41,475 nucleotides of DNA from an uncultured Eubacteriales bacterium (GTDB taxonomy: Bacteria > Bacillota > Clostridia > Oscillospirales > Oscillospiraceae): positions 1 through 41,475 of the forward strand of contig ONOL01000012.1 of the NCBI GenBank assembly GCA_900319465.1. The letters are read 5' to 3'. A model generated the notes under the pieces. That model had not been told where the DNA came from. It did no database searches and worked only from the letters and a program-made list of their open reading frames with translations. Each line of letters begins with the position of its first letter. The stretch's first letter is position 1. The translations under genes were made by a program, and so were the position numbers. Positions 10,898 through 17,424 of the stretch are shown piece by piece.

Positions 10898-10924
10898 AAT
10901 ACGCCCCCTGTCCGGGGGCGTATT
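10898..10924 (+). terminator. Terminator after acpP
   Basis: AATACGCCCCC pairs with GGGGGCGTATT around a 5-base loop; the T-run is weak. Almost the same stem sequence recurs at 27996-28029. Confidence 0.75.
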
Positions 10925-10955
10925 CATTTATCTGTATAATTTTTCCTCTTTTTGA

Positions 10956-10984
10956 TTGACAAACGCCGGGCGAGGGTTTATAGT
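10956..10984 (+). promoter_or_regulatory. metNIQ operon promoter
   Basis: TTGACA (10956-10961), 17-nt spacer, TATAGT (10979-10984). The start point is predicted near 10991, giving a leader of about 250 bases before metN. Confidence 0.85.
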
Positions 10985-11015
10985 ATGCACAATCTTCGAG
11001 AGGAGCGGACCGTCT

Positions 11016-11123
11016 ATGGCTAACATCAGCACCAAGATGATGATGGCTGAGATGCGCATGTGCTGCATGTGCATGATGATGCGCGCGCAAAAATGCGGTT
11101 CGCCCAGTTTCACAGCCATCTGA
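11016..11123 (+). CDS. Met/Cys-rich leader peptide of the metNIQ operon
   Basis: A 35-codon frame, ATG to TGA, with AGGAG at 11001-11005 ten bases before the ATG and a near-consensus promoter 32 bases upstream. Ten residues are Met and four are Cys; codons 7-23 read KMMMAEMRMCCMCMMMR. The peptide has no signal sequence and no similarity I know. A strong terminator begins 17 bases after the stop codon, and metN follows. A short frame full of the regulated amino acid, set before an intrinsic terminator, is the hallmark of ribosome-mediated transcription attenuation. Slow decoding at Met (or Cys) codons would then favour read-through into a methionine importer. Translation and the alternative antiterminator fold are not shown; a small metal-binding peptide is the alternative. 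Confidence 0.75.
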   Translation: MANISTKMMMAEMRMCCMCMMMRAQKCGSPSFTAI

Positions 11124-11140
11124 ATGATCTGACAAATCAT

Positions 11141-11178
11141 CCGGCCGGGAAGCGAGCGAGCTTTCCGGCCGGTTTTTT
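11141..11178 (+). terminator. Attenuator terminator before metN
   Basis: A 13-bp stem (11141-11153 with 11160-11172, one G-U pair) around a 6-base loop, then TTTTTT. It lies between the leader peptide stop and metN, so it must be passed for the operon to be expressed. A 5-bp ATGAT/ATCAT stem (11124-11128, 11136-11140) stacks directly on its base and overlaps the footprint of a ribosome at the stop codon. Confidence 0.88.
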
Positions 11179-11209
11179 GCGGCCCGCACCCTGCGGGCGG
11201 GCCGCAAAA
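11175..11209 (+). promoter_or_regulatory. Second hairpin between attenuator and metN
   Basis: TTTTGCGGCCCGC (11175-11187) pairs perfectly with GCGGGCCGCAAAA (11197-11209). Its left arm includes four bases of the attenuator T-run, so the hairpin could engage that run in a read-through transcript. No T-run follows it. Confidence 0.6.
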
Positions 11210-11238
11210 GAAAAATATTGAGAAAGCCAGAAACCGAC

Positions 11239-12228
11239 ATGATCGAACTGAAACACCTGTGTAAGACCTACGCGGCCCCCGACAAGGAGATCCACGCGCT
11301 CGAGGACATCAACCTGACGATCCGCGACGGCGAGATCTTCGGCATCATCGGCCTCTCCGGCGCCGGCAAGAGCACGCTGGTGCGCTGTATCAACCTTCTG
11401 GAGATCCCCACCTCCGGCCAGGTGCTGGTGGACGGGAAGGACCTGACGCAGCTTCCCCGGAAGGAGCTGCTGCTCCTGCGCCGCTCCATCGGCATGATCT
11501 TCCAGAGCTTCAACCTCCTCGAGCAGCGCAGCGTCCTGCGAAACGTCTGCTTCCCGCTGGAGATCTCGGGCGTCGAACGCAAAAGCGCCGAGAAAAAGGC
11601 GCGCGAGCTGCTGCAGATCGTCGGCCTCGCCGACCGGGCGGACTCCTACCCCTCCCAGCTCTCCGGCGGGCAGAAGCAGCGCGTCGCCATCGCCCGCGCC
11701 CTCGCCACCGACCCCAAGTACATCCTTTGCGACGAGGCCACCTCCGCCCTCGACCCCAACACCACCCGCGCGATCCTCGACCTGCTGCGGCAGATCAACC
11801 GGGATCTCGGCGTGACCATCATCGTCATCACCCACGAGATGAAGGTCATCGACCAGATCTGCGACCGGGTCGCCGTCATCGACCGCAGCCGCATCGCCGA
11901 GGAGGGCAGGGTCAGCGAGGTCTTCACCTCGCCCCAGTCCCAGATCGCCCGGGACCTCATCATCCCGCGGGACCGCGCCGCGCTCGACACCACCGGCGGG
12001 CGCAAGATCCGCCTCACCTTCAACGGCAGCTATTCCCAGGAGCCGGTCATCTCCAACATGGTGCTGGAATGCCAGGCACCGGTCAACATCCTCTTTGCCG
12101 ACACCAAGGAGTTCGAGGGCGTCATCTACGGGCACATGATCGTCGAGCTGCCCTCAGACCCCAAGCAGGCGGAAAAGATCCTGGTCTGGCTGAAAAACAG
12201 CCCGGTCGAATGGCGCGAGGAGGTGTAA
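11239..12228 (+). CDS. metN: Methionine ABC transporter ATP-binding protein MetN
   Basis: 329 residues. The nucleotide-binding domain has Walker A GLSGAGKST, signature LSGGQKQR, Walker B YILCDEATSALD and the H-loop VITHEMK. The last 80 residues form the NIL domain (RLTFNGSYSQEP..., VNILFADTKEFEGVIYG) found in MetN, which binds methionine and inhibits transport when the cell is replete. ATG 11239 gives the family start MIELKHLCKTY; a TTG at 11218 is possible. No good ribosome site precedes either, so expression may be weak or coupled to leader structure. It forms an operon with metI and metQ. Confidence 0.95.
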   Translation: MIELKHLCKTYAAPDKEIHALEDINLTIRDGEIFGIIGLSGAGKSTLVRCINLLEIPTSGQVLVDGKDLTQLPRKELLLLRRSIGMIFQSFNLLEQRSVLRNVCFPLEISGVERKSAEKKARELLQIVGLADRADSYPSQLSGGQKQRVAIARALATDPKYILCDEATSALDPNTTRAILDLLRQINRDLGVTIIVITHEMKVIDQICDRVAVIDRSRIAEEGRVSEVFTSPQSQIARDLIIPRDRAALDTTGGRKIRLTFNGSYSQEPVISNMVLECQAPVNILFADTKEFEGVIYGHMIVELPSDPKQAEKILVWLKNSPVEWREEV

Positions 12229-12231
12229 GCC

Positions 12232-12912
12232 ATGCTTTCGGATATGTTTGTTAAACTCTGGGACGCGGGGCTCATCCAGAAAGGCGTCTGGGAGACGGTG
12301 TATATGACCGTCGTTTCCACCGCGATCTCCTACCTCATCGGCCTGCCCCTCGGCGTGATCCTCACGGTCACCGACAAGGGCGGCATCCACCCCATCCCCT
12401 GGTTCAACCGCGTGCTCGGCGTCATCGTCAATTTCTTCCGCAGCGTGCCCTTCATCATCCTGATGGTGGCGATGCTGCCGGTGGCCAAGCTCGTGGTGGG
12501 CACCTCCCTCGGCAACAAGGCCATGATCGTCATGCTGGTCATCGCCGCCGCGCCCTACATCGCGCGCATGGTGGAGTCCTCCGTCAAGGAGGTCAACGCC
12601 GGCGTCATCGAGGCCGCCCAGGCCATGGGCGCCAGCAATTTCCAGATCGTTTACAAGGTCCTGCTGCCGGAGGCGAAGCCCTCGCTGATCCTCGGCGCGG
12701 TCATCTCCATGGTCACGATCCTCGGCTACTCGGCCATGGCCGCCACGATCGGCGGCACGGGCCTCGGCCAGATCGCCATCAGCTACGGCCACCAGCGCTT
12801 CAACCCGGACATCACCTGGATCTGCGTGTTTCTGACTGTTTTGATCGTTCAGATCATTCAGGAGGTCGGTACCGCCATCGCGCACCGAACCGATAAAAGA
12901 GCCAAGCAATAA
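12232..12912 (+). CDS. metI: Methionine ABC transporter permease MetI
   Basis: 226 residues with five to six membrane helices. The coupling helix region EAAQAMGASNFQIVYKVLLPEAKPSLI is the EAA loop that contacts MetN. Start ATG 12232 lies three bases after the metN stop, with GAGGAGG overlapping the end of metN. It forms the membrane channel of the importer for L- and D-methionine. Confidence 0.95.
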   Translation: MLSDMFVKLWDAGLIQKGVWETVYMTVVSTAISYLIGLPLGVILTVTDKGGIHPIPWFNRVLGVIVNFFRSVPFIILMVAMLPVAKLVVGTSLGNKAMIVMLVIAAAPYIARMVESSVKEVNAGVIEAAQAMGASNFQIVYKVLLPEAKPSLILGAVISMVTILGYSAMAATIGGTGLGQIAISYGHQRFNPDITWICVFLTVLIVQIIQEVGTAIAHRTDKRAKQ

Positions 12913-12956: not shown

Positions 12957-13823
12957 ATGAAAAAGACTCTTGCACTCGTACTCACCGCCGCCCTGGTCCT
13001 TCTAACCTTCGCGGCCTGCGGCAGCACCGCCGCCCCCGCCGCCACCGAGGCGCCCGCCGCCGAGGAAGCCGCTGCCGCCCCCGAGAGCGTCAAGCTCACC
13101 GTCGGCGCCAGCTCCACCCCCCACGCAGAGCTGCTCGAGATCGTCAAGCCCGCCCTCGCCGAGCAGGGCATCGAGCTCGATATCGTGATCTATGACGACT
13201 ACGTGCTGCCCAACACCGCGCTGCAGGACGGCACGCTGGACGCCAACTACTTCCAGCACACCCCCTACCTCAACAGCTTCAACGCCTCCAACGGCACCGA
13301 CCTGGTCTCTGCCGGCCTCATCCACTATGAGCCCTTCGGCATTTACAGCAAGACCGTCTCCGATCTGAAGGATCTCGCCGACGGCGCCACCATCATCGTG
13401 CCCGACGACGACTCCAACCAGACCCGTGCCCTGCTCCTGCTGCAGCAGGAGGGCCTCGTTGAGCTGCCCGACGGCGCCTCCGTGGAGAACGGCGTGACCC
13501 TGCTCGACATCGCAGACAACAAGGGCTACAACGTGCAGGCCGTGCAGGCCGACGCCGTCCCCTCCCTGCTCGCGAACTCTGACGACGGCACCGTCGCCGT
13601 CATCAACTACAACTACGCGCTGGGCGCCGGCTTCAAGACCACCGACGCGCTCGCCATCGAGGACGCCTCCGGCGACGCCGCCCAGACCTACGCCAACATC
13701 ATCGCCGTCCGCCGCGGCGACGAGAACCGCCCGGAGATCCAGGCCCTGGTGGCCGCTCTGCAGGACGGCGCCGTGGATACCTACAACGCCCAGACCGGCG
13801 CCGGTATCGTCGGCATCCACTGA
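12957..13823 (+). CDS. metQ: Methionine-binding lipoprotein MetQ
   Basis: 288 residues of the NlpA/MetQ family. The signal peptide ends in a lipobox LTFAAC (Cys21), followed by an Ala/Pro/Glu-rich linker. The binding domain includes VGASSTPHAELLEIVKPALA, DGTLDANYFQHTPYLNSF and IVPDDDSNQTRALLLLQQEG, all typical of the family. AGGAGG lies before the ATG. It is last in the operon; the leader architecture makes methionine the likely ligand. Confidence 0.95.
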   Translation: MKKTLALVLTAALVLLTFAACGSTAAPAATEAPAAEEAAAAPESVKLTVGASSTPHAELLEIVKPALAEQGIELDIVIYDDYVLPNTALQDGTLDANYFQHTPYLNSFNASNGTDLVSAGLIHYEPFGIYSKTVSDLKDLADGATIIVPDDDSNQTRALLLLQQEGLVELPDGASVENGVTLLDIADNKGYNVQAVQADAVPSLLANSDDGTVAVINYNYALGAGFKTTDALAIEDASGDAAQTYANIIAVRRGDENRPEIQALVAALQDGAVDTYNAQTGAGIVGIH

Positions 13824-15689: not shown

Positions 15690-17424
15690 AACCTTTATCA
15701 AGTGTATCCGGGAATACAAGGCCCCGGCGATCGTCACCCTGCTGTTCATGGTGGGTGAGGTGTTCATCGAGGTGCTGATCCCCTTTTATACCGCCGACCT
15801 GGTCAACGATATCAAGGCCGGCGCGCCGATGAACGAGGTCGTGCGCGTGGGCGTGATCCTCGTGATCATGGCGCTGATCTCCCTCTGCTGCGGCGCGGGC
15901 GGCGGCTACATGGGCTCCAAAGCCTCGACGGGCTTTGCCCGCAACGTCCGGCGCGACGTGTTCGCGCGCATCCAGCGCTTCTCCTTTGAGAACATCGACA
16001 AGTTCTCCACCGCCTCGCTCGTCACCCGCCTGACCACCGACATCAGCAACGTGCAGATGGCCTTCATGATGACCATCCGCCTCGCGGTGCGCGCGCCGCT
16101 GATGTTCGTGTTCGCCATCGTCATGGCCTATACCATGGGCGGTGCGCTCGCGACCACTTTCGTGGTCGTGGTGCCCGTGCTGATCGTCGGCCTGCTCGCG
16201 ATCGCAAAGAAGGCGATGCCCGCTTTCCGCGCGGTGTTCCGCAAGTACGACCGGATGAACGAGTCCATCGAGGAGAACGTGCGCGGCATGCGCGTCGTGA
16301 AGAGCTTCGCGCGCGAGGACTTCGAGAAGCAGAAGTTCGCCGCCGCCTCGGACGACATCCGCCGCGACTTCACGAAGGCCGAGCGCATCGTCGCGCTCAA
16401 CAACCCCCTCATGACCCTGTGCATGAACTTCAACATGATCTTTGTGCTGCTGGTCGGCGCGAAGCTCATCGTCGAGAGCCGCGGCGCCGTCATCGACGTC
16501 GGCCAGATCTCCGCCATGCTGACCTACGGCATGCAGATCCTCATGAGCCTGATGATGATTTCGATGATCTACGTCATGATGACCATGTCCTACGAGTCCA
16601 TGAAGCGCCTGACGGAGGTGCTCAACGAGGAGCCCTCGCTCTCGAGTCCCGCCGACGCGCTCACGGAGGTCGCGGACGGCTCCGTTGACTTTGAGGGCGT
16701 GTCCTTCAAGTACGACCGCAAGGCGCAGGAGGCGGCGCTGGCCGGCATCGACCTGCACATCCCCTCCGGCGCGACCGTCGGCATCCTCGGCGGAACCGGC
16801 GCCGGCAAGACCACGCTCGTGCAGCTCATCCCGCGCCTCTACGACGTGACCGAGGGCTGCGTCAAGGTCGGCGGGCGCGACGTGCGCGACTACGACCTCG
16901 AGACGCTGCGCGGCGCGGTGTCGATGGTGCTGCAGAAAAACGAGCTCTTCTCCGGCACGATCCGCGAGAACCTGCGCTGGGGCGACCCGGACGCCACGGA
17001 CGAGGAGATCGCGGAGGCCTGCCGGCTCGCGCAGGCGGACGATTTCATCCGCTCCTTCCCCGACGGCTACGACACCCACATCGAGCAGGGCGGCACGAAC
17101 GTCTCCGGCGGGCAGAAGCAGCGCCTGTGCATCGCCCGCGCGCTGCTGAAAAAGCCGAAGATCCTGATCCTCGACGACTCCACCTCCGCGGTGGACACCC
17201 GCACCGACGCGCTGATCCGCGCCGGCTTCCAGACTTACATCCCCGAGACCACCAAAATCATTATCGCCCAGCGCGTAGCCTCTGTGGAGGACGCGGATAT
17301 CATCCTCGTGATGGACGGCGGCCGCATCGCCGACCGCGGCACGCACGCCGAGCTGATGGCGCGCAGCCCCATCTACCGCGAGGTCTACGAGCAGCAGACG
17401 AAGGGAGGCGAGGAGCATGAATAA
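15682..17424 (+). CDS. ABC exporter half-transporter, degenerate catalytic site
   Basis: 580 residues: six membrane helices (residues 1-310) fused to a nucleotide-binding domain. Walker A is GGTGAGKTT, the signature VSGGQKQR, Walker B ILILDDSTSAVD. The residue after the Walker B Asp is Asp instead of the catalytic Glu, and the switch His is Gln (IIIAQRVAS). This is the inactive-site half of heterodimeric exporters of the BmrCD/LmrCD/TM287-288 type; the partner is the next gene. Start ATG 15682 has GAGGAAAG before it. Likely a drug or lipid exporter. Confidence 0.92.
   Translation: MIKTFIKCIREYKAPAIVTLLFMVGEVFIEVLIPFYTADLVNDIKAGAPMNEVVRVGVILVIMALISLCCGAGGGYMGSKASTGFARNVRRDVFARIQRFSFENIDKFSTASLVTRLTTDISNVQMAFMMTIRLAVRAPLMFVFAIVMAYTMGGALATTFVVVVPVLIVGLLAIAKKAMPAFRAVFRKYDRMNESIEENVRGMRVVKSFAREDFEKQKFAAASDDIRRDFTKAERIVALNNPLMTLCMNFNMIFVLLVGAKLIVESRGAVIDVGQISAMLTYGMQILMSLMMISMIYVMMTMSYESMKRLTEVLNEEPSLSSPADALTEVADGSVDFEGVSFKYDRKAQEAALAGIDLHIPSGATVGILGGTGAGKTTLVQLIPRLYDVTEGCVKVGGRDVRDYDLETLRGAVSMVLQKNELFSGTIRENLRWGDPDATDEEIAEACRLAQADDFIRSFPDGYDTHIEQGGTNVSGGQKQRLCIARALLKKPKILILDDSTSAVDTRTDALIRAGFQTYIPETTKIIIAQRVASVEDADIILVMDGGRIADRGTHAELMARSPIYREVYEQQTKGGEEHE

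Follow-up and report, generated by a model that had tools for sequence, protein, structure and literature searches.

A probable methionine-dependent, ribosome-mediated transcription attenuator ahead of metNIQ in an uncultured Eubacteriales bacterium and its relatives

Leader-peptide attenuators, such as those of the trp, his, leu, thr, phe and ilv operons, rely on a short translated open reading frame (ORF) enriched in end-product codons, on a segment located past these control codons which pairs either upstream or with the terminator, and on an intrinsic terminator placed before the first gene. Ahead of metNIQ, a Met/Cys leader of 29 residues, metL, was proposed in Streptomyces lividans TK24, and the available text of that report describes the typical Rho-independent terminator as missing and the way of termination as unclear (PMC8079986). 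Histidine leader attenuators were proposed in Firmicutes, according to the available text of two studies (PMC2965389, PMC9413887), and the accessible part of a survey of Actinobacteria states that a conserved RNA structure was not observed before methionine operons (PMC1262725). A search of the open-access literature retrieved no described methionine attenuator with a complete set of terminator and antiterminator. We report here a methionine-import operon of an uncultured Eubacteriales bacterium which, with a probability that we put at roughly 0.83 from sequence analysis, is controlled by a ribosome-mediated transcription attenuator, its leader probably switching import on when methionine is short.

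The window, i.e. the whole stretch of 41,475 nucleotides that was analysed (contig ONOL01000012.1), displays on its forward strand a promoter-like site, a Shine-Dalgarno-like site, the leader ORF, a terminator and then metN-metI-metQ, in this order. The promoter-like site (10956-10984), a consensus match only, is composed of TTGACA (10956-10961) and TATAGT (10979-10984) with a spacer of 17 nt. The Shine-Dalgarno-like GAGGAG (11000-11005) precedes an ORF of 35 codons (11016-11123; translation MANISTKMMMAEMRMCCMCMMMRAQKCGSPSFTAI) with 10 Met codons, start included, and 4 Cys codons; nine of the Met codons constitute a run (11037-11081), the presumed control codons for stalling. The intrinsic terminator (11141-11178) associates a 13-bp stem (11141-11153/11160-11172), a 6-nt loop (11154-11159) and six T (TTTTTT, 11173-11178). 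These elements had been pointed out in the first-pass annotation, and all were found present when their coordinates were rechecked. Profiles identified the downstream genes as metN, encoding an ABC ATPase with a NIL domain (11239-12228; TIGR02314 best but below its cut-off, NIL domain above cut-off), the permease gene metI (12232-12912; NF008049 of NCBIfam above cut-off) and metQ, encoding an NlpA-type lipoprotein (12957-13823; PF03180 above cut-off, MetQ models best yet below cut-off). At the sequence level, a short Met-rich ORF with a ribosome site and an intrinsic terminator are found before the first gene of an operon which, by these profiles, concerns the same amino acid.

Over the six frames of the whole window, a density of 9 Met per 20 residues is reached by only six overlapping stretches, all in the leader ORF, and the next density, 8 Met per 20 residues, by the leader ORF and an ABC-transporter-like gene around 16528-16543. 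The fold of 10985-11240, which includes the terminator and a second hairpin starting at about 11179, is well below those of shuffled sequences (z -6.2), and a hairpin within the Met run shows up in some folds. Elsewhere in the window, 1593-1722 corresponds to the leader of ribosomal protein L10 (RF00557), a known element of an ordinary kind.

A search for MetN in 60 related genomes gave 30 loci whose regions upstream of metN were inspected. A Met-rich leader ORF was recognized in 17 of them, the window's own counted; among the 30 loci, L025 has a partial leader at a contig end and L023 has its leader ahead of metQ-metN. T-boxes above the Rfam threshold precede metN at five loci, two others (L016 and L021) look T-box-like by eye, L017 and L027 show neither leader nor T-box, and the upstream sequence of L010 is too short. 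A profile built from the 17 leader peptides matched 66 of 102 genomes of the genus at E <= 1, of which 63 were retained on inspection of the locus, the other three being weak matches only. With the L023 genome, missed by the profile, the total for the genus rises to 64 of 102 genomes, partial L025 included; many of the 38 genomes devoid of a validated leader are incomplete. The frame is thus kept in homologous leaders, as the attenuator interpretation of the first-pass annotation had anticipated, and one counter-example was found: at L014 (328-428, G024 contig C63), what looks like a decayed leader ahead of an intact metN match retains the ribosome site, the start and the first codons (as L072), and lacks most of the Met run, the segment called B below and part of the terminator, through either a genuine loss or a fault of the assembly.

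The number of distinct leaders in the genus, which excludes L025, is also 64. All are located ahead of metN or metQ-metN except one that has too little downstream sequence; 18 were first seen through metN and 46 through the peptide profile, 45 of the latter having the genes. A terminator-like hairpin is found 3' of the leader ORF in the relatives. Two other structures reported at the outset are present in the window and rare beyond it: searched by exact pattern, the second, GC-rich hairpin occurs in one of the 64 distinct leaders, the window's own, and the ATGAT/ATCAT stem in five of 64. One genome (L069, G077 contig C4) has two metNIQ-type operons separated by about 4.5 kb. Both are preceded by a Met-rich leader and a terminator, and their MetN copies share 75% and 40% identity with the MetN of the window.

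Codon changes were compared in 55 close, non-independent pairs of leaders. Within the run, a difference was seen in 9 of 510 comparisons for the Met codons and in 60 of 306 for the other codons; the corresponding counts are 170 of 365 upstream of the run and 146 of 670 downstream. The suggestion that Met codons would stay constant while their flanks drift was borne out by these counts, and the same pairs display 314 nonsynonymous against 71 synonymous differences. Retention of Met together with drift of the peptide is what would be predicted of a ribosome counting codons, and not of a functional peptide. Met codons besides the start number 6-11 per leader and Cys codons 0-6, mostly two to four, in a set of leaders partly found by their Met content; likewise, the distribution of ATG over the three frames within the ORFs (581/20/18) is inflated, as the ORFs were chosen by their Met-rich frame. 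The codons right after the run (R/C/H-A-Q-K), which form a spacer ahead of B, are also well conserved, with Ala at 90% or more and RAQK as the consensus. Simple codon stalling does not require this conservation, which counts against our main reading, and a role of these codons through the nascent chain may be conceived.

Alignment of the leaders on their last Met codon revealed a segment B complementary to two others, A and C. In the window, B (CGGTTCGC, 11096-11103) starts 14 nt past the last Met codon and has A or C as alternative partners. Segment A (GCGGACCG, 11005-11012) overlaps the end of the Shine-Dalgarno-like site, and segment C (GCGAGC, 11156-11161), of which a second copy is found at 11152-11157, is made of the terminator loop and the first bases of the right arm. 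Pairing was analysed in 63 of the 64 distinct leaders, L013 being dropped for its truncated upstream sequence. In a scan of duplex energies with 12-nt windows for each leader, averaged over 17 sequence groups, the best mean pairing with the terminator apex (-8.7 kcal/mol) starts 14 nt past the last Met codon, and the best mean pairing with A (-8.5 kcal/mol) likewise at +14. When partners were re-paired between the 17 groups, using narrow windows picked after the peak of the energy scan had been seen, none of 20000 permutations was as good as the real A:B in any of three draws, and 13, 21 and 39 of 20000 were as good as the real B:C; the corresponding numbers for the control A:C were 3444, 3439 and 6661. 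With wider windows, as-good permutations numbered 0 of 20000 for A:B and 288 of 20000 for B:C among the 17 groups, and 124 and 2831 of 20000, respectively, among 7 groups. A segment just past the control codons and complementary to the terminator is thus supported by sequence comparison, more weakly in the wide-window test, and a segment able to sequester it when the ORF is not translated is supported by sequence comparison and by the folds of seven chosen leaders.

At the level of individual leaders, more than one fifth of B shuffles equal the real B:C in L012, L015, L023, L087 and L088, and the real A:B in L008, L023, L024, L026 and L091. The same B:C pairing is made with other letters in several relatives: ACTCGT in B with ACGAGT in C (L078 and L083), GCCTGT with ACAGGC (L090), and GCAGCTGT with GCAGTTGC (L008). 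The ORF stops inside or just before B in L076, L078, L083, L084 and L086 (directly after RAQK in L078 and L083), and B is still present, which indicates that in these leaders it is conserved at the RNA level and not for the peptide. The elements of the putative switch that recur when leaders are compared are the ORF and its Met codons, the terminator, and a segment B that is complementary to both A and C and lies at a constant distance from the last Met codon. The earlier statement that the left arm of the terminator has no strong competitor is superseded by these data, since the last part of the ORF is able to pair with the apex of the terminator and, in the nascent fold of the window, with part of the left arm as well.

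In 16 of 17 groups, folding of the nascent RNA, from +10 to just past the terminator loop, predicted that the B region pairs with the apex. In 16 groups, L087 being left out of this control for its mis-called terminator, the expected B-apex pairs amount to 8.3 against 3.7 with shuffled B, none of 60 shuffles being as good; taken one by one, half of these groups (8 of 16) reach 5% or less. When the complete RNA is folded to equilibrium, the terminator prevails, with a mean stem probability of 0.82-1.00 in 16 of 17 groups, the exception being the mis-called L087. As the finished terminator is more stable at equilibrium, antitermination would have to be kinetic and occur during transcription, which is also the case for other attenuators. 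In the absence of a ribosome, A:B forms in all seven leaders chosen among the 63 (6.0-16.8 expected pairs), a configuration that would leave the terminator free and mask the ribosome-binding region.

From these elements we infer ribosome stalling, kinetic antitermination, Met-tRNA as the signal and the following order of events. The polymerase would transcribe the leader, followed by a ribosome reading the leader ORF. If charged Met-tRNA is scarce, the ribosome would stall in the Met run. With a Met codon in its empty A site, a ribosome covers the mRNA to roughly 10 nt beyond this codon; as B lies at +14, the front edge of the ribosome would end just short of B, leaving it free for any stall within the run. 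As the polymerase releases the left arm and the loop of the terminator, B, together with the ORF bases that follow it, could then pair with the apex C, which would delay the terminator hairpin and allow the polymerase to continue into metNIQ. With ample Met-tRNA, the ribosome would proceed over B, covering it about two codons after the run, and the terminator would form and end transcription near 11178. Without translation of the ORF, B would pair with A, freeing the terminator and hiding the Shine-Dalgarno site. The attenuator proposed in the first-pass annotation is thus supported by homologous leaders, by the retention of Met codons and by a candidate antitermination pairing.

Searches were extended beyond the genus. 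At E <= 0.01, the leader-peptide profile matched 21 of 300 genomes of the family (three of them in the genus), which is probably Oscillospiraceae to judge from named relatives with discordant labels, corresponding to 14 of 106 sampled genera with the window's own included, and 4 of 394 genomes of the order, one of them outside the family, from which it appears that the profile does not reach far. Most of the divergent leaders came from a MetI search of the contigs of named genomes, restricted to the best 80 of 525 relatives. Among these best 80 of 525 metI loci, 18 have Met-rich leader candidates, some of them from genomes already counted; five have a T-box above the Rfam threshold upstream of metI, five more a T-box by its core motif, and five a SAM riboswitch. 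An origin of the Met-rich ORFs by chance was rejected: of the short Met-rich ORFs with a ribosome-site motif in the same best 80 of 525 loci, 19 are on the coding strand, including one (L123) that was considered spurious, and 1 is on the other strand.

Nine of 39 candidate entries were dropped as duplicates or spurious, and of the 30 further leaders that were tested, 18 certainly lie outside the genus and the other 12 come from named contigs whose genus is not stated. A metN, metI or metQ match is found downstream of 29 of them. Their complementarity is highest at +15 with C and at +18 with A. The A:B pairing is weak in L144, L149, L154, L164 and L165, the B:C pairing is weak in L106, L110, L144, L154, L165 and L177, and the terminator was mis-called by the script in L102, L149 and L165. 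Oscillibacter sp. ER4 is a named carrier, with the same peptide as L106, and more divergent candidate carriers are Anaerobium acetethylicum and assemblies labelled Herbinix, Mogibacterium, Christensenella and Agathobaculum. Seven metNIQ leaders of other Clostridia (L144, L149, L161, L154, L164, L165 and L174) have little peptide resemblance and partly lack A:B; either common descent or repeated origin could account for them.

In the window's genome (88.5% complete), the only SAM riboswitch match precedes a metK-like gene, so named from reading its sequence (L201, G000 contig C30). The same genome contains a second leader-like ORF, MREDRGMLRLPSAMMCRKHMPVCMCLFSHAQKSGLPIFRA (L061:1539-1661, G000 contig C14), with a promoter-like site and a terminator, ahead of an ABC operon for polar amino acids, the permeases of which show a below-cut-off resemblance to those for cystine. 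It is possibly a Cys/Met leader related to that of the window; no convincing relative was found in the 102 genomes of the genus, the best non-self matches being in another genome (E 0.008) and the window leader (E 0.015).

Several other explanations of the locus were weighed against methionine-dependent attenuation. We consider it very improbable that a known RNA sensor (SAM riboswitch or Met T-box) or a protein binding AUG repeats controls the operon. Such sensors do occupy the same place in relatives, but searching 10900-11260 with Rfam at E up to 1 only retrieved three unrelated sRNA models below cut-off, and the T-box (RF00230) and SAM riboswitch (RF00162) covariance models had no match at the locus, as had been noticed from the sequence by eye; moreover, the AUG triplets keep a single reading frame. 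A similarly slim chance is left to a Met/Cys-rich peptide that would be the functional product, for example in metal binding, next to an unrelated terminator. The consensus peptide has a recognisable sequence, but its stop position and C-terminal part vary while B persists as RNA past the stop, and 63 of 64 leaders precede metN or metQ genes; the prevalence of nonsynonymous changes (314 against 71) led us to reject this candidate.

Two alternatives remain. Sensing of cysteine, or of cysteine and methionine together, by the same attenuator is unlikely in our view, although it ranks above the other alternatives: the window leader has four Cys codons and most leaders two to four, the S. lividans leader mixes Cys and Met too in the available text of its report (PMC8079986), and the second leader-like Cys/Met ORF of the genome precedes a polar amino acid transporter. 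Against it, Cys codons fall to none in some leaders while the Met codons persist (with the reservation that Met content partly served to find them), the downstream genes are metNIQ, and the T-boxes of orthologous loci have AUG at the specifier position, as read in alignments of five orthologous metN loci of the genus. The initial proposal of Met or Cys as the signal is accordingly narrowed to Met, Cys being kept as a lower-ranked rival. Unlikely as well, and slightly below cysteine in our estimate, is an arrest peptide in which nascent MMMRAQK would stall the ribosome after the run at high free methionine or SAM, so that the stalled ribosome would cover B and the terminator would form. Its logic suits an importer, the conserved Ala and RAQK consensus after the run could reflect it, and the L078 and L083 ORFs end right after RAQK, as if stalling at the stop codon were possible. 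However, nine near-invariant Met codons are superfluous for an arrest motif, the remaining codons drift with about four nonsynonymous changes per synonymous one, and the position of B just past a ribosome paused on the final Met codon suits stalling on codons.

Methionine-dependent attenuation, if it operates at this locus, would give Firmicutes a third RNA-based way to sense methionine, next to SAM riboswitches and Met T-boxes, and would supply natural cases in which one sensor has taken the place of another at a single operon. It would also be a case in which the sensed amino acid is the initiator too. We regard as tentative, a little short of even odds, a broader reading in which a clostridial class of leaders sensing Met-tRNA has repeatedly replaced Met T-boxes and SAM riboswitches before metNIQ. 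Since every protein begins with methionine, that reading would imply a response in two phases: a moderate shortage would stall ribosomes in the Met run and open the operon, and a failure of initiation would close it through A:B.

By comparison with known systems, the leader of the window would represent a known type of switch, here specific for methionine, with three pairing segments. It shares with trp-type attenuators the codon-rich ORF, the alternative pairing and the intrinsic terminator, and would differ from them by its Met control codon, by an upstream partner that overlaps the ribosome-binding region, by an antiterminator capturing the apex of the terminator, and by the control of importer genes in Clostridia. 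The metL leader of S. lividans, set beside that of the window by its published peptide, is likewise a Met/Cys candidate peptide ahead of metNIQ, but its ORF is leaderless, has few Met codons and belongs to a different phylum, according to the available text (PMC8079986). The histidine leaders of Firmicutes are, in the available text of their reports, candidates for ribosome-mediated attenuation where others use T-boxes (PMC2965389, PMC9413887), as here, with another amino acid and other genes. Finally, the Met T-box (RF00230) and the SAM riboswitch (RF00162) occupy in relatives the same position upstream of the operon, but in these the RNA senses tRNA or SAM directly, and neither model has a match at the locus of the window leader.
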